Of a stretch of DNA of 28,117 nt, positions 57 through 27,897 are shown piece by piece. The notes under the pieces are model-generated. The model saw nothing but the letters and a program-made list of their open reading frames with translations. It did not search any database and was not told the DNA's origin. A program made the translations under genes and the position numbers. The number at the start of each line of letters is the position of its first letter. The stretch's first letter is position 1. Source of the stretch: a virus; the IMG/VR virus record IMGVR_UViG_3300017971_005826, positions 1-28,117 of that record; one strand, written 5' to 3'.

Positions 57-980
57 ATGGCAGACGAGTATCCGACGCTGTTGGACATCGCCAAGGCCAA
101 CGGCAGTGACGGCCTGGTGGGGCTGATCGACGAGACGGTCCAGGCCCACCCGGAAGTCAGCATGGGCTACGCCCGCACGATCTCCGGCATCAGCTACAAG
201 ACGCTGGTCCGGATCGCGCTTCCGACCGTCGCCTTCCGCAACGCCAACGAGGGCGCCGAGGCGAAGACCGGCAAGTACGAGAACCGCCGCGTCGAGACGT
301 TCATCTTCGACCCGCGGTGGCAGTGCGACAAGGCGATCGCGGACCGACACGAGGACGGACCGCAGGCCTTCATCGCCCTGGAGGCCAGCGCGATCATGGA
401 GGCGAGCTGGCAGCACCTGGCCACGCAGTTCTACTACGGCACGGGCACCTTCGGCGACACGAAGGGGTTTCCGGGCCTGGTCCAGGTGGTCAATTCCGGC
501 CTCGTCGTCGACGCCGAAGGGACGACCGGCGACACCGCGTCGAGCGTCTGGGCCGTCAAGTTCGGCCCCAAGGACGTCGGCTGGGTCTGGGGTGCCAACG
601 GCCAGTTGGCGCTGGACGAGGTCCGCGTCGAGACCGTGCTCGACGACAACAACAAGAAGTACGACGCCTACGTCCAGGCGATGCTCGCCTACCCGGGCTT
701 GCAGTGCCTGCGGGTCAACTCGATCGGGCGGATCAAGAGGCTCACCGAGGACTCGGGCAAGGGGCTGACCGACGCCCTGCTGGCCAAGCTGCTCGCCAAG
801 TTCCCGGTCGGGATCGTCCCCGACGTGTTCCTGATGACCAAGCGGTCGCTGGAGCAGCTCCGCACGAGCCGCACGGCGACGAACGCCACCGGGGCCCCCG
901 CGCCGACGCCGGCCGAGGCCTTCGGCGTGCCGATCCAGCCGACCGAGTCGATCAAGAACACCGAGGCCCTGACGCTGTAA
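57..980 (+). CDS. phage major capsid protein
   Basis: Shell protein of the virion, expected to have the HK97 fold and to assemble into the icosahedral head. The 307-aa product has the features of a short major capsid protein without a scaffold fusion: an acidic N-terminal helical start, a glycine-rich loop (FYYGTGTFGDTKGFPGL, near residues 125-141), an alternating alpha/beta body and a C-terminal strand ending near PIQPTESIKNTEALTL. The ATG follows GTGAGG at a suitable distance. It is the first gene in the window; terminase, portal and protease would lie upstream or, on a circular map, beyond the right end. Next comes a cement-like gene, the usual order. Identification rests on pattern and gene order, not on a search. 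Confidence 0.82.
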   Translation: MADEYPTLLDIAKANGSDGLVGLIDETVQAHPEVSMGYARTISGISYKTLVRIALPTVAFRNANEGAEAKTGKYENRRVETFIFDPRWQCDKAIADRHEDGPQAFIALEASAIMEASWQHLATQFYYGTGTFGDTKGFPGLVQVVNSGLVVDAEGTTGDTASSVWAVKFGPKDVGWVWGANGQLALDEVRVETVLDDNNKKYDAYVQAMLAYPGLQCLRVNSIGRIKRLTEDSGKGLTDALLAKLLAKFPVGIVPDVFLMTKRSLEQLRTSRTATNATGAPAPTPAEAFGVPIQPTESIKNTEALTL

Positions 981-3192: not shown

Positions 3193-3603
3193 ATGGGTGC
3201 TCTTGTAGGACTCGACGCAAAACTGTATCGCGGGAACGCCGGTTCGCCGGCCGCGACCGAGATGCTCAATGTCCGCGACGTGACCCGTCCGGATTCCAAG
3301 TCCGAGGCCGACATCAGCCGGCGGGGGTCGCGGTGGCACGTCGTGAAGGTGACCCGCCGCAAGGTCGAGGTCAACTTCACGATGATCAACGACGATTCGG
3401 ACGCCGACGTGCTCGCCCTGCGCAACGCCTATGACGCCGACACTCCGCTGGCGTTCAAGGTGCTGGACAAGGCGTCGGGCAAGGGGATCGACGCGGACTG
3501 GGAGATCACGAAGTTCGAGGAATCGCACCCGGACGAGACCGAACAGACGATCTCGGTGACGATCAAGCCGACCTACGTCACCCGCTGGCCGGCGGTGGTG
3601 TGA
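3193..3603 (+). CDS. phage major tail (tube) protein
   Basis: A 136-aa protein predicted to polymerise as rings along the tape measure to form the tail tube. The visible pattern is that of the small tube-protein fold: LDAKLYRG start, RGSRWHVVKVTRRKVEVNFTM hairpin region (19 residues quoted around the central strands), then WEITKFEESHPDE and a closing strand TISVTIKPTY. Similar small proteins contain a GKG(I/V)xADWEV-like turn, seen here as GKGIDADWEI. The ribosome-binding site TAGGAGG is nearly perfect and includes the previous stop codon. High expression is expected for a tube protein. Confidence 0.65.
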   Translation: MGALVGLDAKLYRGNAGSPAATEMLNVRDVTRPDSKSEADISRRGSRWHVVKVTRRKVEVNFTMINDDSDADVLALRNAYDADTPLAFKVLDKASGKGIDADWEITKFEESHPDETEQTISVTIKPTYVTRWPAVV

Positions 3604-3658: not shown

Positions 3659-4276
3659 ATGCCAACCGGAAGCATCCATCAAGTCGCGTCGGTGGGCGGC
3701 CTGTCGATCCAGTCGACCGTAATGCGGAGCGAGTCCGGTCAGATCGGCCAGGAGGTCTCGCTGCCCGCCGCCAAGGCGGGGACGCTCTCGACGCGGACCA
3801 ACGACACCGACGGCACGCTGACCCTGGGGGCCGGCCACGGCATCGTCGACGCCGACGTGATCAACATTTTCTGGATCGACGCCAACGGCGTGGGCAAGTG
3901 CGCCTATGGCGCGATAGTCGGCACCGTGGCCGGCAACGACGTGCCGTTCACCGGCGCCAGCGGCGACGCCCTGCCCGCCGAGGACTCGGATATCAGGGCG
4001 AGCAAGGTCGTGGAGATCGACACCGACTTCGATGGCGACCTCGTCAAAATCATCGTCGCCTGTGCGAACCACTTGTCGCATATCGCGTTCCGCGACGTCA
4101 CGCCCACGGTGCTGAAGGCCGTCACGCTCCCGGCGGGAGAGAGCTGGTCATGGATTTCCGACCAGGGAATCGCCAATCCGCTCGCCGGCAACCCGGTCAA
4201 CGATATCCGGGCCTCGAATGGCGACGTAGCGGCCCCGTCGACGCTCAAGGTCGGCGTCCTCTACGACAGCAGCTAG
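3659..4276 (+). CDS. phage structural protein of unknown role
   Basis: A 205-aa protein with Gly/Ala/Ser/Thr-rich beta segments, for example the repeated turns LGAGHGIVDADVINIFW and VGTVAGNDVPF, and no signal peptide or hydrophobic segment. It lies between the tail tube and the tail-assembly chaperone and has a strong AAGGAGA site. It could be a tail-tube-associated or decoration protein. I do not recognise a named family. Codon usage and spacing match the neighbouring virion genes. Confidence 0.6.
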   Translation: MPTGSIHQVASVGGLSIQSTVMRSESGQIGQEVSLPAAKAGTLSTRTNDTDGTLTLGAGHGIVDADVINIFWIDANGVGKCAYGAIVGTVAGNDVPFTGASGDALPAEDSDIRASKVVEIDTDFDGDLVKIIVACANHLSHIAFRDVTPTVLKAVTLPAGESWSWISDQGIANPLAGNPVNDIRASNGDVAAPSTLKVGVLYDSS

Positions 4277-5428: not shown

Positions 5429-8014
5429 ATGACCAACGCGGGTGCAATCCGAGCCGGGCGCGCGTTCGTCGAGCTGTTCGGCGACGACTCGAAGCTCGTG
5501 CGCGTGCTCAAGTCTTCGGAGGCACAGCTCCGCGCGTGGGGCAACCGCGTCAGCGGATTCGGCCGGCAGATTGCGATGGCCTCGGCCGCGGCCCTGGCGC
5601 CGCTGGTGATGGCCACGCGGAGCTTCGCCAGCCTCGATGACGAGATGCGGATCGTCAAGGCGGTCACCGGCGCGACGGCCGACGAGTTCGAGCGACTCTA
5701 CGAGATCGCCAAACGGCTGGGCAGGACAACCTCCTTCAAGGCCGTCGAGGTAGCCGGCGGCCAGCGGGAGCTTGGCCGGGCGGGCTTCAAGCCCGCGGAG
5801 ATCGAGGCCTCGATCGAGGGCGTGTTGAACCTGGCCCGGGCCACCGGGACCGAGCTGCCCGAGGCCGCGGGCATCGCCGCCGGCACGCTCCGGGCCTTCT
5901 CGCTCGAAGCGGACCAGATGAACCGCGTGGTCGACGTCCTGGTCGCCACGGCCAACAACTCGGCGCAGACGCTCACCGACCTCGGCGAGAGCATGAAGTA
6001 CGCCGCGCCGATCGCCGACGAGTACGGGGTATCGCTGGAGGACACGGCCAAGGCCCTGGGCGTGCTGGCCAACATGCAGATCAAGGGCTCGATGGCCGGC
6101 ACATCGCTGCGGCAGATCATGCTGAGGCTTTCGGACCCGGCAATCCGCAAGCGGCTTCAGGACATGGACGTCGACCTCAGTAACATCGGCGACACGATGA
6201 TCGGCATCGGCCGGGCCATGGCCAAGATGAGCCGACCGGAGCGGCTGGCCTTCGCTAAGGAGTTCTTCGACCAGCGGGCCGCCGCGGCGGTGGTGAAGCT
6301 GGCCAAGAGCGACTTCCCGGCCCTCTCCCAAGCCATCGACAACGCCGGCGGCACGGCCGCCAGGACCGCGGAGGAGATGGACGCCGGGATCGGCGGCGTG
6401 CTGCGCCGGCTTTGGTCGGCGGCTGAAGGGGCCACGAACGCCCTGGCCGAAGCCCTGGAACCGTCCATCACCGAGCTGGGCGAGACCGTCACCGAGATCC
6501 TGGGGCCGGTGACGACGTGGATCGAGAACAACCGGGAGCTGGTCACGCTCCTTGCCAAGGTGACGGCCGGGACACTGGCCTTGGGCATGGCGCTGCTCGC
6601 CTTGGGCGGGGCGGCCAAGGTGGTTGCAGCGCTGAATGTGGCGCTGGCCTTCCTGGCAGCCAACCCGCTGGTCGCGGCGGCGACCGCCGGAGCGGCCCTG
6701 GCGCTGGCCATCAGCCGCATGAGCGCGGCCTGCCAGGCGGCGACCAAGGCGATCATCGGCATGACGGCCGCCTGGGCGATCTTCACGGCCAATCCGGTCC
6801 TGCTGGTCTTCGCCGCCACCGCCGCCGCGGCGATCTACCTCAGCGACGCCCTGTCGGACACGGAGGAGAAGTTCGCCGATCTGTCGCACGCTGCCGAACG
6901 CGCCCGCAGTGCCGGCGACAAGCAGCGCGAGGCCGCCCTGAGGCAGGTACGGGAGCTGGAAAAGCTGGCCGCCAAGGAGCGGCTCAACAACGACCAGATG
7001 AAGCGGGCCGAGACGCTCATCGAGTCGCTCGAAAGCCGCTACGGGGACCTGAGCGTGTCGGTCGACCGGGCCACCGGCAGAATCGTCGGGCTGACCAAGG
7101 CCCACGCGGATCTGAACGAGCAGATGCGCCAGACGGCCATCCAGGACATCGAGCGCGAGATCAAGCAGCGGACCGGAAACCTGGAGCGGTTGGCCCGCGA
7201 GCAGCAGGAGGAGCATTCCGACGTGGCCATCGTGATGATGCGCCAGCAGGCCGACCAGGAGCTCGCCGCCATTCGCCAGGCCATGAGTCGCCTGCGGATG
7301 CTCAGGCAGGAGGGCGCGACGCCCGAGGCCCTGACAGGAAAGCCCGGCCTACCGGGCGGCGTGCCCGGCCCGGCCAGCGGAGAGGAAGACGAACGGGTCT
7401 ACGAGGAGACGGTCGCCCACGAGATGGAGCGGATCCGGCTGGGGATGATCGAGAACCGGCACCGGCGGGAACTGGCCCTGATCGAGGAAAAGTACCGGCA
7501 CGAAATGGCCCTGGCGATTCTGGCGGGCAAGGAGAAGGAGAAGGTGGACGACATGGAGCGCAAGCGGGACTTGGAGCTGGCCGCCGCCCGCAAGCGACAC
7601 GCCAAGGAGAACGCTGAGGAGTCGAAACAGCAGGCCGACGACGTCGCCGACCGCGAGAAGGCGCTGCGGTGGGAGATCCAGCGGCTGGAGGTCGAGAAGA
7701 CGATGACCGGCCGGGCGAGGGAGAAGGCCCTCTTGAAGATCGAAGAGGAGCGGGCCCTGGAGGAGGCCCGGGCCGCCGGCATCGATCCGGGCCTGGTCCG
7801 CCGGAAGTACGCCCTGATGGGCCGCGACATCATGGGCCAGACCAGGGAGCGGTTCTCGGTGACCGGAACCTTCAACGCCCTGGTCGCCGGCCGGATGGCC
7901 GCGGGCGGCCCCGCCGAGCGCACGGCCAAAGCGACCGAGGAGACGGCCGGCCACCTGAAATACATCCGCCGCAAGTTCGAGTTCACCGGCCCGAAGACCA
8001 GCAAGTTCACCTAA
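5429..8014 (+). CDS. tail tape measure protein (TP901 type)
   Basis: This protein sets tail length and is packed in the tube lumen. Of its 861 residues, about 45-330 match the TP901-type core: SFASLDDEMRIVKAVTGATA, then repeated helices on AANNSAQTLTDLGESMKYAA and IKGSMAGTSLRQIMLRLSD. Hydrophobic helices lie near 375-470 (TLALGMALLALGGAAKVVAAL; WAIFTANPVLLVFAATAAAA) and long charged coiled coil at about 480-560 and 650-790. The C-terminal AERTAKATEETAGHLKYIRR pattern is common in planctomycete-phage tape measures. It is the longest gene of the window, as expected. The ATG lacks a clear Shine-Dalgarno because a repeat occupies the upstream bases. Confidence 0.88.
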   Translation: MTNAGAIRAGRAFVELFGDDSKLVRVLKSSEAQLRAWGNRVSGFGRQIAMASAAALAPLVMATRSFASLDDEMRIVKAVTGATADEFERLYEIAKRLGRTTSFKAVEVAGGQRELGRAGFKPAEIEASIEGVLNLARATGTELPEAAGIAAGTLRAFSLEADQMNRVVDVLVATANNSAQTLTDLGESMKYAAPIADEYGVSLEDTAKALGVLANMQIKGSMAGTSLRQIMLRLSDPAIRKRLQDMDVDLSNIGDTMIGIGRAMAKMSRPERLAFAKEFFDQRAAAAVVKLAKSDFPALSQAIDNAGGTAARTAEEMDAGIGGVLRRLWSAAEGATNALAEALEPSITELGETVTEILGPVTTWIENNRELVTLLAKVTAGTLALGMALLALGGAAKVVAALNVALAFLAANPLVAAATAGAALALAISRMSAACQAATKAIIGMTAAWAIFTANPVLLVFAATAAAAIYLSDALSDTEEKFADLSHAAERARSAGDKQREAALRQVRELEKLAAKERLNNDQMKRAETLIESLESRYGDLSVSVDRATGRIVGLTKAHADLNEQMRQTAIQDIEREIKQRTGNLERLAREQQEEHSDVAIVMMRQQADQELAAIRQAMSRLRMLRQEGATPEALTGKPGLPGGVPGPASGEEDERVYEETVAHEMERIRLGMIENRHRRELALIEEKYRHEMALAILAGKEKEKVDDMERKRDLELAAARKRHAKENAEESKQQADDVADREKALRWEIQRLEVEKTMTGRAREKALLKIEEERALEEARAAGIDPGLVRRKYALMGRDIMGQTRERFSVTGTFNALVAGRMAAGGPAERTAKATEETAGHLKYIRRKFEFTGPKTSKFT

Positions 8015-9326: not shown

Positions 9327-10763
9327 ATGGGCGACCCGTTCAAGAAAGTGCAGCCCGGCGACGACCAGGAGATCCCGGCCGAGACGTTCAACACGTTCAT
9401 CGACGCCGCGTTGGACTTCAAGGCCCGCACCCGCGGCCTGGGGCAGAAGGCCACGCCCCAGGTCCCGCAGCGGACGATCATCCCGGTCAAGAACATGACC
9501 GGCGCCCAGCGCAACCGCTTCGACGTGGCGGCGGTCGACCAGCCGATCTTCGACCTCGGCTCCGCCGCCGGCAAGCAGCGCCCGGCCGCTGTCGGCGTGA
9601 AACCGGACCCGGCCAGCCAGCTCGGCCGGATCGCCGTCTTCCTGGAGCCGGCCGACGTGGGCGCCATCGCCCGCTGCTGCGTCTCCGGCGTCACGGTGGC
9701 CCGGGTCACCTTCCACGAGAAGTGGCACCGCTGGGCCGACTTCAAGAAGGACGAGTGCCAATCCCTCGAAAGCCGCGCCGAACCCGGCGGCGCCTACATC
9801 CTCTGGTCACCCGGCAGCACGGGCACCCAAATGTGCCTGGTCCGCCTCAGCAACCCGCCGCCAGTCCACTTCCCCGCCAAGATCACGTCGGCCACGTCCA
9901 TCCCCGGATCGCAGGGTCGATACAAGTACACCTTCGCCGAGGTGGAGAAGAAGGCCAAGGAACACGACGGCTGGCAGGTCAAGGACGACGGCCGGAGCGG
10001 AACCGCCTTCAACCTGGTGGAGACGGTAAACGATCCCCAGTGCGTCCCGGCCAAGGTAGGCGAGACGGTCCGGATGGACGAAGTCCACTTCACCGGCGAG
10101 AGCGGCGAAGAAGAGACCGAATACTGGTTCCAGTACGAGGAGTACGACCAGGACGCGCCGAGCGATGGTTCATCTGCCTCGCCCGGCTCGGATGGCGGGC
10201 CGCCGCCGCCCGGCGGCTACGTGGACATCGTCACCTGCGACATCCACAACCGTTGCGGGCAATACTTCGTCTTCAAGCAGAAGCGGATCAGCTACGACGC
10301 CCGCGGAAACATCACCTCCATCACGGACATTTCGCCGTCCGTCGTGCCGATCTACGAGTGCCAGAGCAGCGGCGGCCCGCCGCCACCACCCGACTACAGC
10401 AGCGGCGATTCCAGCGATTTCATCGGGCAATCCTCTGGCGGGCCGCCCTCGGAGGTCTGGTACATCTGGCACCGCGGCGCCGCCGGCGAGGGCGAGTGGT
10501 GGATTTCCAAGACGATCGGCGACGAAAGCGACGGGTACTGTTGGCGGAAGTTCGACGGCGGCGACACGACTCCGCCGGTCGAGGGCCAGTACGGGACCGG
10601 CCCGTTCACGTCCGGCGTGGCCACGGTCAGTGACGCCGGCGGCATGGACCTGAACGTCTCCGGTACGCTCAATCCCGACGCGACCGGATTCTACAGCTTC
10701 CAGGGGTTTGACCACCTGTACAACGGTCTCGGCACCTGGAAACGCACCGGAGGATTGCCCTGA
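9327..10763 (+). CDS. putative tail fibre / receptor-binding tail protein
   Basis: A 478-aa modular protein. The N-terminal about 280 residues begin with a helix (DQEIPAETFNTFIDAALDFK) typical of phage proteins that attach to the baseplate and continue with beta-rich sequence. Two Ser/Asp/Gly/Pro linkers (around residues 285-300, SDGGPPPPGGY; and 350-378, SSGGPPPPPDYSSGD) separate it from small domains. The end, residues 420-478, is a compact Gly/Phe/Tyr-rich module (GFYSFQGFDHLYNGLGTWKR). The ATG at 9327 is preferred; an upstream in-frame TTG is weak. The stop TGA overlaps the glycosyltransferase start by one base. Host binding is inferred from modularity and place. Confidence 0.6.
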   Translation: MGDPFKKVQPGDDQEIPAETFNTFIDAALDFKARTRGLGQKATPQVPQRTIIPVKNMTGAQRNRFDVAAVDQPIFDLGSAAGKQRPAAVGVKPDPASQLGRIAVFLEPADVGAIARCCVSGVTVARVTFHEKWHRWADFKKDECQSLESRAEPGGAYILWSPGSTGTQMCLVRLSNPPPVHFPAKITSATSIPGSQGRYKYTFAEVEKKAKEHDGWQVKDDGRSGTAFNLVETVNDPQCVPAKVGETVRMDEVHFTGESGEEETEYWFQYEEYDQDAPSDGSSASPGSDGGPPPPGGYVDIVTCDIHNRCGQYFVFKQKRISYDARGNITSITDISPSVVPIYECQSSGGPPPPPDYSSGDSSDFIGQSSGGPPSEVWYIWHRGAAGEGEWWISKTIGDESDGYCWRKFDGGDTTPPVEGQYGTGPFTSGVATVSDAGGMDLNVSGTLNPDATGFYSFQGFDHLYNGLGTWKRTGGLP

Positions 10764-13309
10764 TGCCTGCCCTGCGCTTCGCCTCGCACCGCCAAGTCGC
10801 CGAGCAGGCCGCCCTGCGCCCGCCGCGGTACCTGCTCGACCTGGAGCGCATCATCGTCCGCCGCGACGAGCACGGCATCTGGTACGATGCTGCGCGGCCC
10901 GCGTACCTTGAGTTGGTGCGCAAGTACCGGCCCGTCCCGCGGCCCTCACCCCCTCACCCCCTCGCCCCCTCACCCCGTCAAGACATCTGGCAGGCGTGGC
11001 GCGCAGAGGGCGGCCGCTGGGTCGCCGATGGCTGGCTCCGCCCCGGCTTCTACGCCGATCCGCCGTGCTTCGACCCGTTGCCCGGCGAAGTGCTCCAGTG
11101 TCCGGCCTTTCCCGCGGCAGACTTCCGGGCGCCGCCCGGCGATGGCCCGATCGACGTGGTCATCCCGCTGTCCGCCGGCAGCAAGCACGGAGACGCTGAG
11201 CTGCGCTACTGCCTCCGTTCGATCGCCAAGCACTTCGAAGGCCTCGGCCGGGTGTGGATTGTCGGGCACCGCCCGACGTGGCTCCGTGGGATCCAGCATA
11301 TCCCGGCTGGAGATTCCCACATCAGCAAAGACGTGAACATCATCCGCAAGATCGAGGCCGCCTGCCGGGCCGGCGTTTCCAGACAGTTCGTCCGCATCTC
11401 GGACGACCAGATCCTCTTGCGGCCGCTGGCGTTCTCGCAGCTCGGGCCGTATACCTGGGGCGATCTCCGCGGCCGGCCGATCGGCAATCCTCAGGAAGAG
11501 TCCCGGCGGTGGTACCGGCGGCTGCGGCGCACGTCGGGCTGGCTGGCCGAGCGCGGTCTGCCCACGTTCCAGTGCGACACCCACGTCCCGATCCCGATGG
11601 ACCGCGACCGCTTCCTGGAGCTCGCTGACCGGACCCGCGACGCATGGGAGTTGCGCGACGGGATGTGCGTGAACACCTGGTACTGCAACCAGGCCGGGCG
11701 CAAGCCGCAGCCGATGCAGAACCGCAAAGCGACGATCGAGGCGGCGCTGCCGGCCGAGGAAATCCGCCGCCGCGTGGCCGGCCGCTGGTTCCTGGGCTAC
11801 AACGACGCGGGCTTCACGCCGGACTTGCGGGCCCTCTTGGACGAGCTATTTCCTGAGAAATGCCGGTTCGAGGAGGAAGAGGAGAACACTAATCCCCACT
11901 CATCAGCGCTAATCAGTTGGGATCAGCGTTCCAGCTCTCTTTCCGTGCGTCCTGCCGGCCCGACGCTCTCGATCATCATCCCGACCATCGGCCGCCCGGC
12001 CCTGACGCGCACGCTGGAGAGCATCCGCGGGCAGGATATGGTCGACGGTGACGAGGTGCTCGTGGTGCAGGACGGGCCGAGCGACCTGGCGACGTGGGCC
12101 GTCGTGAAGGCGTCTGGGTTGCCCGGACGGTATCTGGCGACGGGGAAGCGGGCCAACGATGTTGGGGCCGCGCCGCGAAACTTCGGCATAGCCCACGCCG
12201 ACGGCGAATACCTGGCCTTCATGGACGACGACGACGTGTATCGCCCCGGGGCCTTCGACGCGATTCGGGCGGCGGCGGTTCGACACCCGAGGCGGCCGCT
12301 GATGTTCCGCATGGAACGGCCCGGGTGGGCGCGTACGATATGGCAAGACCAGGCCGTCCGCTATGGCAATGTCAGCACGCAACTCTTCGTAACTCCCAAC
12401 CATCCCGGTCGCTTGGGGACGTGGGGACCGTACCACACGGGAGACCTGGCTTTCATTCTGTCCACGCTGCGCTGCTGGCCGCCAGGCTCTCTCCTTTGGG
12501 AGCCGGCAACGATCGCCGAGGTGCCCCAAACGCAAAGCACGCTGCCGGTCAACCACCCGATGCTCCGAAACCTCATCTACCACGTCTATCCGGTGGCCAC
12601 AAACGACGAGTGGAAGCTAAACGTAGAGAGGCTCTGCCGTTCCTGGACGCTCTTCAATGGCCGCAAGATCGTGGGCGTCGTCTGCGACAACGACACCGTT
12701 CCCGTCGAGGCAGTTCAGGCGGCGTTCCCCGACGATGCGATTGAATGGCTCGTCGCGCCCAACGACCCTGTACGGGGAGAAACAGTCACGTTCTTGCCGG
12801 CCGCCAAGCGGCTGGAGTCCCTCAATTCCTACGAGGCCACTTTCTACGCCCACGCCAAGGGCACCCATCGCGCAGGCAACCCAAAGAACGAAACGCCCGC
12901 CGAGAGAATCCGGCAATGGCGGGATTTCTGCTACCGAGGCTGCCTGGAAAGGCTGCCGCCGGACTTCGACGACATCATCCATGTGAAGCCCTGCGCGGGG
13001 TGCCTCAAGCGGCAGAAGGGTTTGCCGCAGGAGAAAGGACGGCCGGAATCGTATTGGCACTACTCCGGCAATTTCTGGTGGATCAACCACGCACACTTTT
13101 TTAGCCTACCCGATGCACTCCATCTGGGGCCTTCGCGATGGGCACTGGAACGCCACCTTGGGGAATTGTTCCCGGAAGCGGACGCCGTCTGTTTGGCAGG
13201 CGACGACTTCCGCGGCTGGCCGTACCGCATGACGGAAGGCGAGTGGTCGGCCATGGAAAGGCAAGCCTTCGGGTCGGCGCAACTACAGGAGACCACGCAT
13301 GGGTCTTGA
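10763..13309 (+). CDS. three-module glycosyltransferase (Stealth-like + GT2 + third GT-like module)
   Basis: An 848-aa protein with three parts. Residues 130-365 resemble Stealth/capsular-phosphotransferase-like proteins: DVVIPLSAGSKHGDAELRYC, VWIVGHRP, KDVNIIRKI and an acidic RISDDQILL motif. Residues 400-600 are a GT-A family 2 glycosyltransferase: LSIIIPTIGRPALTRTLESI, RNFGIAHADGEYLAFMDDDD with the DxD metal site at 488-491. Residues 600-825 carry FYAHAKGTHRAGN and YWHYSGNFWWINHAHFF, a module seen in other sugar transferases to my memory. Linkers at 61-72 and 374-390 are encoded by dispersed DNA repeats. It overlaps the tail gene and the methyltransferase. Likely role: modifying host surface glycan or virion protein; substrates unknown. 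Confidence 0.75.
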   Translation: MPALRFASHRQVAEQAALRPPRYLLDLERIIVRRDEHGIWYDAARPAYLELVRKYRPVPRPSPPHPLAPSPRQDIWQAWRAEGGRWVADGWLRPGFYADPPCFDPLPGEVLQCPAFPAADFRAPPGDGPIDVVIPLSAGSKHGDAELRYCLRSIAKHFEGLGRVWIVGHRPTWLRGIQHIPAGDSHISKDVNIIRKIEAACRAGVSRQFVRISDDQILLRPLAFSQLGPYTWGDLRGRPIGNPQEESRRWYRRLRRTSGWLAERGLPTFQCDTHVPIPMDRDRFLELADRTRDAWELRDGMCVNTWYCNQAGRKPQPMQNRKATIEAALPAEEIRRRVAGRWFLGYNDAGFTPDLRALLDELFPEKCRFEEEEENTNPHSSALISWDQRSSSLSVRPAGPTLSIIIPTIGRPALTRTLESIRGQDMVDGDEVLVVQDGPSDLATWAVVKASGLPGRYLATGKRANDVGAAPRNFGIAHADGEYLAFMDDDDVYRPGAFDAIRAAAVRHPRRPLMFRMERPGWARTIWQDQAVRYGNVSTQLFVTPNHPGRLGTWGPYHTGDLAFILSTLRCWPPGSLLWEPATIAEVPQTQSTLPVNHPMLRNLIYHVYPVATNDEWKLNVERLCRSWTLFNGRKIVGVVCDNDTVPVEAVQAAFPDDAIEWLVAPNDPVRGETVTFLPAAKRLESLNSYEATFYAHAKGTHRAGNPKNETPAERIRQWRDFCYRGCLERLPPDFDDIIHVKPCAGCLKRQKGLPQEKGRPESYWHYSGNFWWINHAHFFSLPDALHLGPSRWALERHLGELFPEADAVCLAGDDFRGWPYRMTEGEWSAMERQAFGSAQLQETTHGS
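10943..10977. repeat. in-frame CCCTCACCC repeat encoding a Pro-rich linker
   Basis: Four units of CCCTCACC/CCCTCGCC read through in frame and encode PSPPHPLAPSPR in the glycosyltransferase. The same word occurs at the end of the gene before the tape measure. Confidence 0.65.
11884..11931. repeat. dispersed palindromic repeat, copy 1 (within glycosyltransferase)
   Basis: The element starts GAACACTAATC and ends GATCAGCGTTC, with an interior of CACTCATCAGCGCTAATCAG words. It shares this design with copies at 18781 and 21797. It sits in frame at the junction of the first and second transferase modules and encodes residues about 374-390. Confidence 0.8.
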
Positions 13310-13844
13310 AAGTTGGGTGTTTCCGGCGGAGGTGCCTGGATTCTTGAGCGCACACGAAGCGCGATGCCTCGCGGAAATGGCTGCCGGCCGATCAGTCCTC
13401 GAGATTGGCTCCTACTGCGGTCGCTCGACGATCTCGATGGGGCAAACGGCCGACTCCGTCGTCTCCGTGGATTGGCACCGCCCGGCCTTCGCCTTCCCGA
13501 AGGGTGGCACGCTCGAACGACTCCAGGCGGGGCTGCACTCTTTCCGCGTCTCGGAACGGGTTGTCGTGCTTGTGGGCCCGGCCCAAGACGTGCTGCCTTG
13601 GCTTGCATCGGGCCAGTTCGGAATGATCTTTCACGACGCGGGCCACAGCGAGGCGGAAGTTGTCGCCGACATTAGCGCCAGCCGCCGGCTGATTCGGCCT
13701 GGGGGACTGTGGGCCATTCACGACTACCTGCACCCAGAGTACGGCGCGGGAGTCAGAGCCGCGGTCGCTTCGCTTTTTCCCGGCCTGGACGTCCGGCAAG
13801 AGGGAAGCCTGGCGATCGTGAAAGAGCCGCCAACGGGCGGCTAG
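13299..13844 (+). CDS. class I SAM-dependent methyltransferase
   Basis: A 181-aa Rossmann-fold methyltransferase of the Methyltransf_24 kind. Motif I is VLEIGSYCGRS (residues 33-43), the second strand acid is in DSVVSVDWH (52-60), and MIFHDAGHS (109-117) and GGLWAIHDY (135-143) match the later strands and the metal/substrate loop of sugar- or O-methyltransferases. Its start lies inside the last codons of the glycosyltransferase, so both are made from one transcript. The pairing suggests methylation of the glycan built or altered by that enzyme. Its stop overlaps by three bases the stop of the opposite-strand gene. Confidence 0.8.
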   Translation: MGLESWVFPAEVPGFLSAHEARCLAEMAAGRSVLEIGSYCGRSTISMGQTADSVVSVDWHRPAFAFPKGGTLERLQAGLHSFRVSERVVVLVGPAQDVLPWLASGQFGMIFHDAGHSEAEVVADISASRRLIRPGGLWAIHDYLHPEYGAGVRAAVASLFPGLDVRQEGSLAIVKEPPTGG

Positions 13845-15158: not shown

Positions 15159-15321
15159 GAAGTACCGCCGCAAGCGTGGCAGCGACACCTGGCATTTTTG
15201 CACGAACTGCTCGAATTGGCCGACGAGCGACCACGACGAACGGGATACGAAGCCCACCTCCGGCGAGTTGTGCAACGAGTGCCAGGGCAAGGATCGGGCC
15301 GGCACCTGCAAGAAAGCCTAG
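15157..15321 (+). CDS. 54-aa zinc-ribbon protein
   Basis: Small protein opening MKYRRKRGSDTWHFCTNCSN with cysteines 15, 18, 39 and 42 in two CxxC pairs and a basic N-terminus; residues 20-24 read NWPTS. The family is familiar to me from planctomycete and other mobile elements but has no known activity. It has a near-perfect AAAGGAGG site seven bases before the ATG, which lies inside the first codons of the divergent zinc-ribbon gene. A strong terminator follows 27 bases after its stop, so it forms a one-gene transcript. Confidence 0.75.
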   Translation: MKYRRKRGSDTWHFCTNCSNWPTSDHDERDTKPTSGELCNECQGKDRAGTCKKA

Positions 15322-15347
15322 CCGATCCCCGTCGCGTCTTCCACCCC

Positions 15348-15380
15348 AGGCCCGTCCGGACATCCGGACGGGCCTCTTTG
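15348..15380 (+). terminator. strong intrinsic terminator
   Basis: AGGCCCGTCCGGA and TCCGGACGGGCCT form a perfect 13-bp stem around a CA spacer, followed by CTTTGTT. It ends the 54-aa zinc-ribbon gene. Confidence 0.85.
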
Positions 15381-15609
15381 TTGCGCCCTGTTCCGTCTTC
15401 GCTGCCGGCCTCGGGCCTCGCTGGGCCCGCCGCTTTGCGCCTCGTGCGTCCCGGCGCCCTCGTGCGACACCTGAGGCCCTGGCCGGCCCGACGCGTCAGG
15501 TGGGCCGAGACGAATTCTTATCAAGCCCGGCGCAAATGCCCTAACCGGCCCCGCGAGGTTTCCCAGAGCGGCAGAAGCGCCATTTCCCCCCAGCCTTCGC
15601 AGCTAAGGA

Positions 15610-15651
15610 CTACGGAACCGAAGGTTACTGGTTCGAGTCCAGTGGGGTGTG
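15610..15651 (+). other. displaced 3' half of a tRNA-Arg-like gene (candidate attP/att core)
   Basis: From the anticodon loop onward this reads like a tRNA: loop CTACGGA (anticodon ACG), ACCGA 3' stem, AGGTT variable region, ACTGG-TTCGAGT-CCAGT T arm and GGGGTGT acceptor strand. The 5' part is missing: the bases before the loop (AAGGA) do not pair with ACCGA, and no matching 5' acceptor strand is upstream. This is the form left when a tyrosine integrase uses a tRNA gene and crosses over near the anticodon loop. An integrase gene begins 1.6 kb downstream. Host tRNA identity is inferred. Confidence 0.65.
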
Positions 15652-15665
15652 CTTCTGGGGGGGCT

Positions 15666-15694
15666 ACAGCTACGGACAGCGTATCCGTAGCTGT
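15666..15694. other. perfect 11-7-11 inverted repeat, candidate recombinase core site
   Basis: ACAGCTACGGA and TCCGTAGCTGT are perfect inverted arms separated by seven bases (CAGCGTA), the geometry of tyrosine-recombinase core sites. The inner word CTACGGA also equals the anticodon loop of the tRNA-like fragment 15 bases upstream. There is no T-tract, which argues against a terminator. Confidence 0.5.
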
Positions 15695-15725
15695 CCCCGC
15701 CACTTGATAGAGGGAGGATTGATCG

Positions 15726-15866
15726 ATGGGCAGGGATGCACCGCAGAGACCGCAGAAGCCGCCGCCCCCACCGGACACCGGCCGGCGCGGGACGGCCCCC
15801 AAGCCGGAGCCGCGGAGCGGTTCAGGCGGTCAGGGCGGCCGGAAGCAGCCAGGCGGCGGCAAGTGA
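15726..15866 (+). CDS. 46-aa Pro/Gly-rich basic peptide
   Basis: Begins eight bases after an excellent AGGGAGGA site. The product is fully disordered in character: a run of prolines (QKPPPPPDTGRRG) and a basic Gly-rich end (GGQGGRKQPGGGK). It lies between the candidate att site and the integrase region, and its last 45 bases overlap the end of the opposite-strand membrane-protein gene. Near its start, CCGCAGAGACCGCAG is a heptad-like dispersed repeat word, so it may have arisen from repeat DNA. Function unknown. Confidence 0.45.
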   Translation: MGRDAPQRPQKPPPPPDTGRRGTAPKPEPRSGSGGQGGRKQPGGGK

Positions 15867-16415
15867 CAAGAGGAGGCAGGCGAAGCCGAGCCAACCGGCC
15901 TTCCAGTGGTTGGTGACCTTGAGGGCCTCGACCGCGCCGTGGTAACTCGCCGCGAGCCAGGCCTCAGGGTTCTCGGCGGTGTCGATGCCCTCCAAGACGT
16001 CGCGGATGCGCGGGGGCATCGGGCAATCCGTGGGTCGGCGCGACCACACGATCGCCAGCATCGAAGCGACCAGGGAGGCCAGCGAGAGACGGATCGGCCA
16101 GCCCGGCAGGACGTGGAATGCGCCGACGGCAGCCAGCTCGACCGCGGCCAGCAAACCTGCCGTGCGAAGGATCCGGTCCGCGGATTGATTGAGCGACTCG
16201 AAACACTGGGAGACCTCGGCGTAGCGTGCCCGGGCATGTTCGAGCACGACCGGCCCCGGAACTTGCTGAGTCGACTGATAGTCAGCGACCCACGCGGCCT
16301 CGGCCGCGCAGGCCGGATCCGCACTTGGATCGGGAGGGCGGAAATAGAACCCCAAGGCCCTGATTCTTTCCAGGCCCTTGGCCCACAAGGCTTCGATGAA
16401 CGCAAAGGGATTCAT
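15822..16415 (-). CDS. three-span membrane protein
   Basis: A 197-aa protein with a helical N-terminal region (residues 1-80), two adjacent membrane spans (about 84-102 and 106-125), a cytoplasmic-type loop with Pro-rich PTDCPMPPRIRDVLEGID, and a third span (174-194) close to the C-terminus. The start ATG is preceded by GGGGATG. It stands alone on the minus strand beside the integrase control region, where superinfection-exclusion or other lysogenic genes are often found. No family recognised; that role is conjecture. Confidence 0.6.
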   Translation of the reverse strand: MNPFAFIEALWAKGLERIRALGFYFRPPDPSADPACAAEAAWVADYQSTQQVPGPVVLEHARARYAEVSQCFESLNQSADRILRTAGLLAAVELAAVGAFHVLPGWPIRLSLASLVASMLAIVWSRRPTDCPMPPRIRDVLEGIDTAENPEAWLAASYHGAVEALKVTNHWKAGWLGFACLLLSLAAAWLLPAALTA

Positions 16416-16527
16416 GGTACATCCCCAGCATCGAGATGACGGGACGAACAACCGTTCACCATAGCCGGGAGAAGGCCAGCCGACAATCCGAACACTGAGC
16501 CACGCGGGGGCCGGGGACCTCTTCAAC

Positions 16528-16540
16528 CGCCAAGTTGTTG
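16528..16540 (+). repeat. 13-mer CGCCAAGTTGTTG, site 1
   Basis: First of four copies around the integrase promoter: 16528-16540, 16652-16664 (both direct), 16969-16981 (inverted) and 17084-17096 (direct, one mismatch). Candidate integrase arm-type or regulator binding site. Confidence 0.55.
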
Positions 16541-16651
16541 ACGTCGGTATCAACCCTGCCCCCGTGCCGGGGCCCTCCGGGCGGCCGGAGGGCCCTGGCC
16601 TGAAACACACGAGGAACGCGAAGCCACGCGGGGGCCGGGGACTTCTTCAAC

Positions 16652-16664
16652 CGCCAAGTTGTTG
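16652..16664 (+). repeat. 13-mer CGCCAAGTTGTTG, site 2
   Basis: Identical to site 1, 124 bases downstream, within the second tandem element. Confidence 0.55.
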
Positions 16665-16684
16665 ACGTTACTCTTCAACCCTGC

Positions 16685-16732
16685 CCCCGCCGCAAGGCCC
16701 TTCGGGCAACCGAAGGGCCTTGCCCCTTTCTT
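16685..16732 (+). terminator. intrinsic terminator at end of tandem element
   Basis: CAAGGCCCTTCGG-GCAA-CCGAAGGGCCTTG, a 13-bp stem with a tetraloop, followed by CCCCTTTCTTGT. It would end any transcript crossing the tandem elements before the integrase promoter. Confidence 0.65.
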
Positions 16733-16747
16733 GTATCGGCGCGCCCG

Positions 16748-16765
16748 GTGACAACACGTTGTCAC
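16748..16765. promoter_or_regulatory. operator-like palindrome
   Basis: GTGACAAC-AC-GTTGTCAC is a perfect dyad with 8-bp arms and a 2-bp centre, the form expected for a dimeric repressor. It lies about 130 bases before the -35 box of the integrase-region promoter. No second copy was noticed nearby. Confidence 0.5.
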
Positions 16766-16893
16766 ACCTATGGGGCTTTTCCCGAAGAAAGAATCCGGGG
16801 CGACCGACGCCATAAAGTCCGACGTTTCAAAGGCTTTCGCGCCGATCCGCCAGATCCGCGGGCCTCTTTTCCCGAAATTCGGCCCGGGTCCGC

Positions 16894-16923
16894 TTGACAA
16901 AGCGAGGCCGTTTGATCTCTAAT
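16894..16923 (+). promoter_or_regulatory. sigma70-type promoter
   Basis: TTGACA (perfect -35) and TCTAAT (5 of 6 at -10) with 18-base spacing, in otherwise GC-rich DNA. Transcription would start near 16930 and run through the hairpin at 16943-16963 toward the integrase. Confidence 0.6.
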
Positions 16924-16942
16924 CGCGGGCGAAGAGTAACGT

Positions 16943-16963
16943 GGGCCCGCGCTGTGCGGGCCC
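16943..16963 (+). promoter_or_regulatory. leader hairpin downstream of promoter
   Basis: GGGCCCGC-GCTGT-GCGGGCCC forms a perfect 8-bp GC stem beginning about 13 bases after the predicted start of transcription. No T-tract follows. It is placed between GAAGAGTAACGT and an inverted 13-mer, words that occur in the same order on the opposite strand of tandem copy B. Confidence 0.55.
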
Positions 16964-16968
16964 GAAAC

Positions 16969-16981
16969 CAACAACTTGGCG
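16969..16981 (-). repeat. 13-mer CGCCAAGTTGTTG, site 3 (inverted)
   Basis: Exact match to sites 1 and 2 on the minus strand, directly after the leader hairpin. Confidence 0.55.
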
Positions 16982-17083
16982 AGTCACCGACTCACCCCTG
17001 GCCTCTTAGGCAACTTCCTTCTTGTTTCTCGCCTGGGTCGAGGCCTAACGTGGTCGGCGTTCTCGCCGGACTGCGGCCGTTTC

Positions 17084-17096
17084 CGCCAAGTTGTCG
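17084..17096 (+). repeat. 13-mer, site 4 (CGCCAAGTTGTCG)
   Basis: 12 of 13 bases match the other copies. It is the site nearest the integrase start. Confidence 0.45.
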
Positions 17097-17270
17097 GTCG
17101 GCCGCGACCACAGGCTTCCTGGCGCCGTTAAAAAGCGCGTGCGGCGAACGTGACGCTGTGCGTTTGCGTTCGCCGTGCGCGCGGCGCACGGAGGAGATCG
17201 GGCAGGGCAACGGGCGACGGACGTCCCCAACCAGGCGGCGCCGAAGCCCCAGCCCCAAGGAGTGCTGAAC

Positions 17271-18407
17271 ATGTCCAGCAGCTTCCCGATCCCGTACGAT
17301 GCCGGCCAGCCCGGCGGCTCACCACGAGAAACGCCGCCCCCGATCGGCATCCACCGGCCCGACGAGACGGGCCCGCCGCGCGGCCTTTCACCGCGCATGA
17401 CCCTCTGCGAGTTCTTCGAGGCCTTCGTCCTGCGCCGGATGCAGAACAAGGACCTCGACGCGTCGACGATCGGCGACTACGGCCAGTCGCTGAAGTACTG
17501 GAAGCGGTTCACCGGGGACCCGCCCCTGGAGGCCGTCGACCAGTCGGTCTGCGACGAGTACCTGGCCCGCGTGAAGCGTCTGCCCGGCCGCAGGGGAAAC
17601 CAAGTCCTCTCGCCGATGACGGTCCGCAAGCACTGCCGCAACGTGCAGCGGTGCCTGGAGCTGGCCGGACCGAAGTACGGGCCGCGGCAGATCGTGGCCG
17701 CCAAGCGCGGCCTCTTCGGCCTCGATGAGGATGGCGATCCGCGAGACCCGCCGCGCCTGGAGCCACCGGACCGCGTGGAAGACGAGGCCGAGAACGTCTT
17801 CACGCTTCACGAGATCGCCTCCTGGCTCGACGTGTGCGACCAGGCGATCGCACCGCGCATCCCCGGCCTGACGCCGGGCTCGTGGTGGAGATCGCTGGTG
17901 ATCTACTGCTACAACGTCGGCGTGCGGATCGGCACAGCCCTGCGCGTCACCTATGCCATGCACCGCGCCGACGACGACGGGCGCACGTGGGTCCACGTTC
18001 CGCCGAAGAAGAAGGCCATCAAGGGCCGGCGCGGCGAGCGGTTCTACGTGAACCGGAGCGCCTGGGAGGCAATCGAGGCCATCCGCACGGACCGCGACCT
18101 GGTTTTCCTGTGGCCCCATCACCGTCGGCACCTCGACACGGTCCGGGTGAAGCTCCTGACGATGGCCGGCATCCCGCTGGACCGACAGTTCGGCTTCCAC
18201 GGCGTGCGCAAGGCGTTCTGCACCGAGATGGCCGAGGACAACCCGATGGTCGCGCAGAAGCAGGCGGGCCACGCGGGCATGGCCATCACCCGCGACGTTT
18301 ACTGCAACCGGCGCATGGTCGCCGGCTCGATGGAAAAGCTCCGGCAGCCGAAGCGGCGAAACCGCGTCGGAAAAGATGACCCGAGGCAGAAACGCCTCTT
18401 TGACTAG
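17271..18407 (+). CDS. int: tyrosine recombinase / phage integrase
   Basis: Catalyses site-specific integration and excision of the element. In the 378-aa product, residues 43-135 are the helical core-binding (SAM-like) domain (TLCEFFEAFVLRRMQNKDLD; STIGDYGQSLKYWKRF). Residues 175-345 are the catalytic domain, with Arg219 in NVGVRIGTAL, a likely Lys in PPKKKAIKG, His310 and Arg313 in FHGVRKAF, His334 in GHAG and the nucleophile Tyr344 in RDVYCNR. All expected residues are present, so it should be active. The ATG at 17271 follows AAGGAGTG; an in-frame ATG at 17175 is less likely. The Pro-rich first 40 residues may bind arm sites. Two terminators follow. Confidence 0.9.
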   Translation: MSSSFPIPYDAGQPGGSPRETPPPIGIHRPDETGPPRGLSPRMTLCEFFEAFVLRRMQNKDLDASTIGDYGQSLKYWKRFTGDPPLEAVDQSVCDEYLARVKRLPGRRGNQVLSPMTVRKHCRNVQRCLELAGPKYGPRQIVAAKRGLFGLDEDGDPRDPPRLEPPDRVEDEAENVFTLHEIASWLDVCDQAIAPRIPGLTPGSWWRSLVIYCYNVGVRIGTALRVTYAMHRADDDGRTWVHVPPKKKAIKGRRGERFYVNRSAWEAIEAIRTDRDLVFLWPHHRRHLDTVRVKLLTMAGIPLDRQFGFHGVRKAFCTEMAEDNPMVAQKQAGHAGMAITRDVYCNRRMVAGSMEKLRQPKRRNRVGKDDPRQKRLFD

Positions 18408-24320: not shown

Positions 24321-24913
24321 ACCGCAACTACCGATCCTTTAACGAGGTCGCCGTACCCGACGAAATCCGCGACGCCGACCTGCTGCTCTACCGCCGACTC
24401 CCCCGGGAGCCGTCCCTGGTGGCCAGGCTGATCGCCGCGTGCGGCCGCGGCGATCACTACCACGCGGCCAAGGTCGCCTGGGCATCCGGCATGCTGCGAT
24501 GCCTGGAAACGCGATCCTGGCGCGACGCGCGTGAAGTGAGTCTGGAGAGCCAGGTCCGCAGGTACCCGGGGCGGATCGACGTGTACCGGAGCAACCCGGG
24601 CGATCGCTGGCCGGAGTACGATCGGGCGGGCGCGACGCGCGTGATGCGTTGCATCAGCGGCAAGAAGTACGGCTGGTGGAATCTTTTGCTGGCCGCGCTG
24701 CTGCACCTGCCGGTGGTGAGACTCTTCGTCCGCGCCGACGTGGACGATCGGGCCGTCGACAAACGCCCGCCCTATTGCAGCCACGCCTGCGCCTACGCGG
24801 ATCGCGTCGGCGGCGGCGTCGATCCGGTCCCCCACCTAGCCGACCGCCTGACCGAGCCGGCCGACCTGGCGCGCAGCCAGTTTTACGAGTACCAGTTCAC
24901 CCTGATCCCATGA
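24317..24913 (+). CDS. permuted NlpC/P60-like (YiiX-type) papain-fold peptidase candidate
   Basis: A 198-aa protein with the pattern of circularly permuted papain-fold enzymes: DADLLLYRRL, then GDHYHAAKVAW with candidate catalytic His49, RRYPGRIDVYRSN, GKKYGWWNLLLAAL, and a late PPYCSHACAYAD with candidate nucleophile Cys154. Relatives cleave amide bonds in peptidoglycan, lipids or proteins. A hydrophobic stretch (121-138) may be structural or membrane-associated. Coupled by ATGA overlap to the regulator before it and to the trypsin-like gene after it. A phage endolysin or a cell-envelope amidase is possible; substrate unknown. Confidence 0.6.
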   Translation: MNRNYRSFNEVAVPDEIRDADLLLYRRLPREPSLVARLIAACGRGDHYHAAKVAWASGMLRCLETRSWRDAREVSLESQVRRYPGRIDVYRSNPGDRWPEYDRAGATRVMRCISGKKYGWWNLLLAALLHLPVVRLFVRADVDDRAVDKRPPYCSHACAYADRVGGGVDPVPHLADRLTEPADLARSQFYEYQFTLIP

Positions 24914-26601
24914 AGAGCGCCGGACTGATTCTGCTGGTGTCCGTCCTGCTGCTGATGCCCCGGCATCCGGCGTCGGGCGAGCGGGCGATCACGGTCGGCT
25001 CTCCCCCCAGCATTGGCCCAGCCGCGCCCGGGGCGGGCGCGATCATCGTGGGGAGATCGCCGAGCGTCGGCACGGCCACACAGCACCCGGCGGTGTGTCG
25101 GATCTCCAACACGATGCCGGGCGGCTGCATCAATTGGGGTAGCGGGACGGTCGTCGATGTCGACAAGACCTCGGCGCTAGTGCTGACGTGCTGGCACATC
25201 TTTGAAGACGGAACCGGCCAGGTGGGCGTCTGCGTCGGCGGGCGATGCGTGGTCGGTCGCTTGGTCACCGTCGACCAGGCCTGGGACCTGGCGGCGGTGG
25301 AGATCTCGGGGACAGGGCTGCGTGCCGTGCCGATCGCCGGCGAATCGCCGAGTCGCGGCGAGCGGCTCATAGCGTGCGGTTTCGGCAAGGGACAGTACGC
25401 GTGCGTCGCCGGCCGACTCAGGGGCTACGTCGCCACCGAAACGGCCGCCAGCCGTGAGACAATGGAGATCGGTGCGGGGGTCCGGGAGGGGGACTCGGGC
25501 GGCCCGGTCCTCAACGGCCGCGGCGAACTGGTCGGTGTCGCGTGGGGGAGCGACGGACGGATCACGGAGGCGACGTGCGTCGGGCCCATCCGGCGTTTTC
25601 TCGGGAGGCTGCGGGGGCGAGACGGGCGCCAGGTGATCGGTCCCCCGGCAGCCCGGCCCGACGCGCCGGCGGCGAGGCGGCCCCTGGTGCCGATCCCGCC
25701 CGGCGCACAGCCCATCGCGCCGTCCATTCCCGTGCCGCCCAGGCAACCGCGCACGCCGGACCTGATCGACCGCGAGAAGCTGGCGGCGGCGATCGAGGCA
25801 GCGTTCGCCGCGCTGGAGGCCCGGCTCGAGGCGCGGCGAAAGGCCGCGCCGATCGACGCTGGCCAGGCCCAGCGGCCGATCCTCGACGCCATCGGCGAGC
25901 TGGGGCGGAAGATCGGCCCGGGCATCGACCGCCAGGCCATCCGGGACGATTTTCGGGCCGTCGCCGGCGACCTGGTGGACGCGGCCGCTCCGACGGTGGT
26001 GGAGACGGCGCTGCCGGCCGCGCTGAGCGCGTTGGGGTGGACGGGCCCACCGGCGATCGCCGCCTGGCTCATCGCCCGCCTGGGCCTGGGCCTACTCCGC
26101 CGGCGTCGGCAGCGACGCGAGCTGGCGCAAGCGACCGGCGCTGGCCAGCCAACCTCTCCGAGCCCGTCGATCCAGATTTATACGCCGACCCCGGAAACGG
26201 GCGATTACCTCGCGTATTGGGCTCACCACTTCGAGGCCACGGGCGGGAACCTCCGGGAAGAAGCTGCCAAGGCCCCAATCTACGTCGAGGCGCTCGAAGC
26301 GCTGAAGGCCGGAAAAATCCAGGTCGACGTCAAGCCGGCGATGATCGCCGGCGGCATCGACGGCCTGGTGGCTCGCGAGTTTGCGCGGCGCGGCGAGATC
26401 CTCCCGCAAGGCGACTTCCGCGACGCGGCGTACCTGGGCTTCCTCTACCGGGACGCCGTCGCGCGGCTCCGAGGGGGCTTGTTGACGGCTTGCGGGTTCC
26501 GGGAGTCGGCCGACGCCATCGGGGCGTGGGTCGCGCAGGAGTTCCAGTTGAAAGTGAAGCGACCACCCCACGTCACATTTTTACAAGGAGTTCTCTCGTG
26601 A
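24910..26601 (+). CDS. exported, membrane-anchored trypsin-like serine protease
   Basis: A 563-aa protein. Residues 1-23 are a signal peptide (MKSAGLILLVSVLLLMPRHP). Residues 60-235 form an S1 protease with the triad His96 (LTCWHIFED), Asp126 (AWDLAAVE) and Ser196 (REGDSGGPV), all present. Residues 245-285 are Pro-rich, 286-345 helical, 378-396 a membrane span followed by RRRRQRR, and 425-563 a distinct helical domain (DYLAYWAHHFEATGG; FLYRDAVARLRGGLL). The protease domain would be outside and the last domain inside, so a cut or binding event outside could be relayed inward. Coupled to both neighbours by ATGA and GTGA overlaps. Confidence 0.7.
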   Translation: MKSAGLILLVSVLLLMPRHPASGERAITVGSPPSIGPAAPGAGAIIVGRSPSVGTATQHPAVCRISNTMPGGCINWGSGTVVDVDKTSALVLTCWHIFEDGTGQVGVCVGGRCVVGRLVTVDQAWDLAAVEISGTGLRAVPIAGESPSRGERLIACGFGKGQYACVAGRLRGYVATETAASRETMEIGAGVREGDSGGPVLNGRGELVGVAWGSDGRITEATCVGPIRRFLGRLRGRDGRQVIGPPAARPDAPAARRPLVPIPPGAQPIAPSIPVPPRQPRTPDLIDREKLAAAIEAAFAALEARLEARRKAAPIDAGQAQRPILDAIGELGRKIGPGIDRQAIRDDFRAVAGDLVDAAAPTVVETALPAALSALGWTGPPAIAAWLIARLGLGLLRRRRQRRELAQATGAGQPTSPSPSIQIYTPTPETGDYLAYWAHHFEATGGNLREEAAKAPIYVEALEALKAGKIQVDVKPAMIAGGIDGLVAREFARRGEILPQGDFRDAAYLGFLYRDAVARLRGGLLTACGFRESADAIGAWVAQEFQLKVKRPPHVTFLQGVLS

Positions 26602-27453: not shown

Positions 27454-27897
27454 ATGAAAGACAAACAGCGGATGGCGGTCCTCTGGGCCGCCCTGGCGAA
27501 GACGGCGGCCAAGGAAGCCCGCCGCGACGAGCTGCTCGCCGGGGCCACGCACGAACTCCACCTGTCGATTGCCGGCACGATCGACGGCGAGCCGGTCGGG
27601 CAGATCGTGCGTGCGACCCTCAGCGTCGGGCACGACTTCGCCAAGGCCAGTTCGTCGGGACCGAAGTCGGCGGAGGTGATTGCCTGCGTACTCCACAAGC
27701 TGAACGCAGCCACGCGCGAGGCCGTGCTCAACGGACTCGCCGAGCACTTCGCGGCGACGACGCAATTGCCGGACGTGCCCGCCTCCCTGGTCAACGCGGC
27801 CAATCGGCTGCTGGGCCAGCTCCGCAACTGGGAGCAGATCACCCAGCGCGGTCCGGTGGCCTGCCGGTACCAACTCGGCACGGGGGGCCCGCCATGA
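27454..27897 (+). CDS. 147-aa protein of unknown function
   Basis: Begins after AAGGAA. Helical start (RMAVLWAALAKTAAKEARRD), a strand region (HELHLSIAGTIDGEPVGQIV) and a helical end (KLNAATREAVLNGLAEHFAA). The beta segment followed by helices might be a small nucleic-acid-binding fold, but I do not recognise it. Its stop overlaps the next start (ATGA). Confidence 0.55.
   Translation: MKDKQRMAVLWAALAKTAAKEARRDELLAGATHELHLSIAGTIDGEPVGQIVRATLSVGHDFAKASSSGPKSAEVIACVLHKLNAATREAVLNGLAEHFAATTQLPDVPASLVNAANRLLGQLRNWEQITQRGPVACRYQLGTGGPP

Follow-up and report, generated by a model that had tools for sequence, protein, structure and literature searches.

The closest described counterparts of the locus analyzed here are the Islander class A anticodon-type tDNA sites. 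In the available part of their description (PMC4383910), attP holds a fragment of the target tRNA that begins with the anticodon loop and extends to the 3' end, the tRNA is restored and the old fragment displaced on integration, and the integrase gene lies within the element in the same orientation. The integrases of lambda-like systems are heterobivalent and possess an N-terminal arm-binding (AB) domain. Simple recombinases such as Brujita Int, a phage tyrosine recombinase without an arm-binding domain, consist of core-binding and catalytic domains only. The accessible sections of PMC8138268 count 27 phages with simple recombinases against 410 with an AB domain, link this domain to the control of direction and call it essential for the mobility function. 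For actinobacteriophages, the part of PMC10865867 at hand describes a tRNA-dependent lysogeny in which attB lies in a tRNA gene that is not rebuilt, the phage bringing its own tRNA, and presents anticodon-loop cores as common in mycobacteriophages. Finally, dif/XerH and loxP sites are made of two inverted half-sites of ~10 bp around a short spacer, with two 11-nt repeats and a 6-nt spacer in the case of dif (PMC8371274, in the part available).

We analyzed a 28,117-base IMG/VR virus record, referred to below as the window. With high confidence, we assign one of its segments to the attP common core of a temperate tailed phage of Pirellulales, accompanied in the P' arm by a recurrent palindrome with a putative role. 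As in the class A sites, attP contains a tRNA fragment that starts at the anticodon loop, and a tyrosine integrase gene is encoded nearby in the same orientation; an attP of this kind is already known and ordinary, and it is well supported here. Unlike in the class A sites, the host belongs to the Pirellulales, the integrase probably lacks an arm-binding domain and the P' arm carries an additional palindrome. The integrase resembles simple recombinases in its predicted domains, but a symmetric duplicate of a core-type half-site lies near its core; we did not find a description of such a duplicate in the open-licence literature, including the accessible sections on simple recombinases. In contrast to tRNA-dependent lysogeny, the attL of a relative rebuilds the tRNA, and the window encodes no tRNA. 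The palindrome shares with dif and loxP the arrangement of its half-sites, but its spacer is 7 bp instead of 6, its arms track the tRNA target, and any recombination at it is putative. The coordinates of the features are presented in Table 1.

Table 1. Features of the attachment region and of the phage genes in the window.
Feature	Position	Strand	Basis or remark
attP common core	15610..15651	+	tRNA-Arg(ACG) nt 32-73, anticodon loop to discriminator
Anticodon loop CTACGGA, 7 nt, presumed overlap (crossover) region	15610..15616	+	base difference at 15609; start of the G224 repeat
Phage-side core half-site C, CAGCTAAGGA, directly left of the crossover	15600..15609	+	
Right core half-site C', ACCGAAGGTT, anticodon stem 3' strand and beyond	15617..15626	+	
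'Shadow' palindrome ACAGCTACGGA-CAGCGTA-TCCGTAGCTGT in the P' arm	15666..15694		inverted copies of the C half-site; candidate second integrase site
Tyrosine integrase	17271..18407	+	PHROG_1 E 1.6e-19, PF00589, alignments
Major capsid protein, left (virion) arm	57..980	+	phrog_212, PF20911
Major tail protein-like	3193..3603	+	phrog_1407 E 1.1e-4
Tape measure protein	5429..8014	+	phrog_1533 E 2e-69

An earlier note on this DNA had recognized in the core the 3' half of a tRNA-Arg without its 5' half, and this claim was confirmed. The exact 40-mer at positions 15610-15649 was found in the genome collection on five contigs, each from a MAG assigned to Pirellulales/Planctomycetaceae. In five shuffled windows the nearest sequence to the 40-mer had 17-18 mismatches, which excludes chance as its source. 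Three of the five contigs (L002, L003 and L006) contain the full tRNA-Arg(ACG), so that planctomycete genomes do hold a complete gene ending in this segment; a fourth copy (L004) is cut by the contig end, and the fifth (L005) is a 3' half only. Identity to the window extends across 15607-15654 with one mismatch in the contig of L003 (97.9%) and across 15607-15655 without mismatch in C129, the contig of L005. The part shared with the host tRNA opens with the first anticodon-loop nucleotide. By contrast, the 32 bases directly upstream differ from the 5' half of the tRNA at 22 of 32 positions, and the best match to this 5' half in the whole window still has 13 mismatches out of 32. The site thereby links an anonymous virus contig to Pirellulales and to one tRNA gene.

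The base preceding the loop, at 15609, is an A in the window and in the attR of the prophage relative G002 described below, and a T in the attL of G002. This phage-type A in the window and attR versus T in attL places the exchange 3' of 15609, and the boundary at 15609/15610 is sequence-level evidence for an exchange in the anticodon loop. A point against the assignment is that the left half-site of the window and the known host half-site, GAGCATCGGT, are equal at only 5 of 10 bases. Taken together, the exact tRNA copy, the nearby integrase and the occupied sites in relatives, all of which are read directly from the sequence along with the base where identity starts, point to an attP with an anticodon-loop crossover. 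In a Pirellulales host, strand exchange by the window integrase would thus take place within the anticodon loop (7 bp) of the tRNA-Arg(ACG) gene. The phage-borne 3' part would take the place of the split-off one, leaving the tRNA intact at attL, and the old 3' part would be displaced to the far end as attR.

A search for relatives of the integrase covered 296 genomes from the host order. The best one, with 49% identity (E 1.5e-112), is encoded on contig C2 of MAG G002, 2,036 bp behind a full tRNA-Arg(ACG) (374-448) that contains the 40-mer match; the element with the closest integrase is therefore integrated exactly in the gene at which the earlier note had suggested looking for it. C2 is a tailed-phage prophage encoding a terminase, a portal, a capsid protein, a head-tail adaptor and a tape measure protein. 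To the right of attP, the window genes with matches near the tRNA of C2 are int, a sigma-like gene and that at 27454; to the left of attP, a gene at 3659-4276 has its match at 33.7 kb of C2. A phage circle and its prophage should differ by just this permutation, which fits the proposed attP of a circular map. A displaced 3' half, the candidate attR, is present in the same MAG at C129:526-574, where it adjoins the end of a stretch of repeats coding for WD40, 81-83% alike to those ending C2; on the basis of these shared repeats, we infer that attL and attR, found on separate contigs, belong to one element.

In relatives, the element is thus flanked by the regenerated tRNA and the displaced fragment, on two contigs for G002 and on a single one for G224. 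The latter, a more distant relative in tRNA-Arg(TCG), shows a complete attL and attR with a perfect 44-bp repeat, 35.8 kb apart, whose first base is also that of the anticodon loop. The crossover sublocation varies among relatives, since in G217, inserted in tRNA-Lys, it lies in the T arm, with a repeat from nt 50. A displaced half was not found in six further contigs (G196, G105, G049, G017, G299 and G177), several of which are short or end early. Of 42 integrase-homologue loci read in GTDB genomes, first within 1.5 kb and then with longer flanks, 25 had a same-strand tRNA upstream of int (20/30 in the first loci and 5/12 in the further ones), and none had an upstream tRNA on the opposite strand. 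Regarding an empty site for G002, neither prophage flank was found beside the tRNA-Arg in L002, L004 or L006 (L009-L011 being stretches of the same places), nor was such a site present in the other 29 of the 30 loci L050-L079. No integrated copy of the window's own phage was seen. Scans of viral contigs with the exact 40-mer and a 25-mer gave no match, the window's own record being possibly excluded from them, and a scan with the single integrase protein gave none either. The alignment-based integrase scan retrieved four viral contigs, one of them with an upstream tRNA (L106, tRNA-Met). With blastn against a phage collection, the 20 matches listed of 236 were all short, with E of at least 0.2, some being T-arm-like.

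The earlier note had placed virion genes to the left of the core and replication genes to the right. The left side was as described, with the capsid, tail and tape measure genes of a member of the Caudoviricetes; on the right, no replication family was matched among the ORFs scanned, and we found CsrA-like, sigma-like and trypsin-like genes beyond the integrase. No terminase or portal was detected among the window ORFs scanned, and no terminal repeats were found; the window is a fragment. The integrase ORF is open from 17175, with the likely start at ATG 17271, and lies ~1.6 kb from the core. In alignments it has the R, HxxR, H and Y residues in place, which form the residue pattern of tyrosine integrases, and an unconserved N-terminus. 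No arm-binding domain was matched in Pfam at E 0.01. In the AlphaFold model, residues 1-37 are disordered (pLDDT <50) and the first helix, at 45, is followed by core-binding helices; with a mean pLDDT of 66.7, the modeled folds are indicative only. The top structural matches of this model were Tn1549 Int, XerH and Cre, with the lambda and Brujita integrases lower (5vfz for Brujita Int, E 7.3e-4). Among the elements that carry the palindrome, the integrases start 11 to ~60 residues before the core-binding domain, with an unconserved tail; in G224 there are 76 residues if the first Met is used. These short unconserved tails and the model, disordered and then core-binding, suggest that the window integrase probably lacks an arm-binding domain, and the integrases of the other carriers appear to lack it as well. 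Direct repeats of at least 10 nt close on both sides of the core, as arm-type sites might form, were absent from 15300-17250, a search that shorter or degenerate sites could escape.

In our view, the candidate second site in the P' arm counts for more than the identification of attP. About 15 bp beyond the tRNA end, we observed a perfect inverted repeat, CAGCTACGGA-N7-TCCGTAGCTG, with arms of 11 nt that copy the half-site to the left of the crossover and a 7-nt spacer, the length of the anticodon loop. The motif CAGCTAMGGA has exactly three copies in the window, all inside 95 bp, namely the left core half-site and the inverted pair at 15667-15693; three copies were obtained in 0/100 shuffles, for a motif that was picked post hoc. 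Sites were then scored as X-N7-rc(X), where X stands for either the 10 nt that precede the loop or the reverse complement of the 10 nt that follow it. The window palindrome reached 18/20 at spacer 7 only, versus 13/20 at spacers 4-6 and 8-10, and none of 500 dinucleotide shuffles of the window P' arm scored 18.

The same arrangement was found in relatives, each time in the letters of their own tRNA: GAGCATCGGT-N7-ACCGATGCTG in G002 and GGCCATCGGT-N7-ACCGATGGTC in G224. The score was applied, with a threshold of 15/20, to 26 elements that have a tRNA upstream (17 and 9 added), taking the first 800 nt of P' in each. At spacer 7, 12/26 elements reached it, a count that is not fully independent, as the idea came from the window, G002 and G224, the last two being within the 26, and as the 26 share ancestry. 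At spacers 3-6 and 8-12, only 0-3 of the 26 did so. With a score of at least 16, the difference was 11/26 at spacer 7 against 0-1/26 at the other spacers. Controls at spacer 7 gave 1/26 on the int-gene side, 0/26 on the host side, 0/26 for each of four other tRNA 10-mers and 26/552 with the tRNA of another isotype. Among the 12 carriers, the distance of the palindrome from the tRNA end ranged from 7 to 672 bp.

The remaining 14 of the 26 elements scored below 15/20 in the first 800 nt of P'. Two of them, each with a score of 14, are borderline and uncounted: G251, and L115, which has a perfect 10-bp palindrome with spacer 7. In L106, a perfect 9-bp palindrome with spacer 7 matches its own tRNA stem poorly, and G105 has no such site despite an integrase start near-identical to that of L122. 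A T-loop variant of the test gave 15/20 in 2/26 elements (G105 and G299), 14/20 in G217 and G106, and lower values in the others. In a later sample of five loci, the single one with a tRNA, 3.9 kb away, scored 13, below the threshold. For HP1, taken as an outside comparison with only part of its core, the best score in attP was 12/20, not above background. Carriers of the palindrome were distributed according to the N-terminal tail of the integrase, with 12/17 for short tails versus 0/7 for helical ones (Fisher p 0.0046), in a split made by eye and post hoc that excludes G251 and G031.

These results suggest that the palindrome is a second, symmetric core-type integrase site, either accessory to recombination or an operator, two readings that we consider roughly equally likely. 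We propose that a dimer of the integrase binds it with the domains that it also uses at the core. As an accessory site, it could then make up for the missing one, in attP and attL only. Its presence there and its absence from attB and attR could signal to the enzyme which reaction to perform. With its fixed 7-bp spacer and target-tracking arms, it is a concrete candidate for direction control without an arm-binding domain, and its arms may also serve as a sequence readout of the half-site of each integrase. We advance only tentatively, as a possibility that we would not bet on, the general form of this proposal, in which widespread planctomycete integrases without an arm-binding domain use a symmetric, tRNA-matched core-type site in the P' arm instead of arm-type sites, possibly to set direction. 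Recombination of the palindrome with the core itself is unlikely, as their 7-bp spacers differ.

The palindrome may alternatively be an operator through which the integrase regulates itself, repressing or timing int/xis transcription outside the recombination complex. This is a serious contender, if somewhat short of an even chance. In G106 and L115, the palindrome lies between the tRNA end and a xis-like gene (helix-turn-helix, by eye) that precedes int. The available part of PMC2951348 reports that intS of KplE1 is autoregulated by its integrase at attL, and that of PMC3706429 describes inverted arm-type-like sites at int starts in Cluster J mycobacteriophages. On the other hand, the distance from the palindrome to int is ~0.7 to 2.1 kb among carriers, with intervening ORFs in some elements.

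The palindrome could also be a terminator of transcription, some other RNA hairpin or the leftover of an older tRNA insertion, but this is considerably less probable. As RNA, 15655-15705 would fold into a hairpin of high stability (-32 kcal/mol, z -4.9), and the palindrome lies just beyond the tRNA in many elements. However, no T-run follows it, and the arms follow the tRNA isotype of each element, as seen above with the tRNA of another isotype. The spacer is fixed at 7, but no more than four of its letters (0-4 of 7) agree with the anticodon loop in any of the 12 carriers. The arms exceed the 5-bp stem into D-stem bases and are mirrored, unlike in a tRNA.

Concerning the core, a tandem prophage junction, which the earlier note had left as an option, or a relic scar is very unlikely in place of a free-phage attP. 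In sequence, a tandem junction would be indistinguishable from attP, and lone 3' halves do exist in the lineage (L005). However, the core is flanked by phage genes on either side, the DNA comes from a virus record, no duplicated gene was seen and the gene order is that of one prophage opened elsewhere; the last two observations make a tandem junction unneeded and less likely than attP. Least probable of all is a functional phage tRNA or a tRNA-like small RNA (YrlA/Y RNA-like): the T arm is intact and a YrlA match covers 15599-15697, but at 17.5 bits (E 0.75) for a gathering score of 69 bits, ARAGORN called no tRNA in the window, Rfam gave no match to it at gathering level, the fold of the 74-nt stretch does not surpass that of shuffled sequences (z 0.16, versus -2.5 for the host tRNA), and the exact tRNA match ends at the anticodon loop, as for an att core.

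Several minor observations were made on the integrases and the surrounding sequence. The integrases of G165, G177, G299, L119, L120, L121 and G217 form a sister group with an N-terminal tail of ~45 residues, partly alike and helical by eye, and have no shadow palindrome. A short LRLF-like motif precedes the core-binding domain in those of G002, G224, G017, G050, G049, G106, G143, L106, L115 and L125. In the window, a small ORF (15726-15866) of 46 Pro/Gly-rich codons, by eye with a good ribosome-binding site, starts ~30 bp past the palindrome. Two tandem intergenic units ~124 nt apart, at 16490-16725, each consist of CCGCCAAGTTGTTG and a G+C-rich hairpin, with two extra copies of CCGCCAAGTTGTTG before int at 17083-17096; these units may be operators or terminators.

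In the G002 prophage, a tRNA-Met(CAT), which presumably resembles an initiator tRNA, is located 648 bp behind int (L046 4352-4424) and has no counterpart in the window. Beside attR, ~41-43.5 kb of C2 (L048) together with L049 1-447 encode a STAND protein with SIR2-like, NB-ARC-like and WD40 parts, defence-like by eye; the WD40 repeats probably caused the contig break at the end of C2. In the window, the gene at 24649-26601 contains a trypsin-like peptidase domain (PF13365) and gave weak PADLOC matches to RT-Protease_XI. To the left of attP, we observed a large glycosyltransferase-like protein (10763-13309) and a methyltransferase-like gene (13299-13844) with a weak PADLOC match to mad2.
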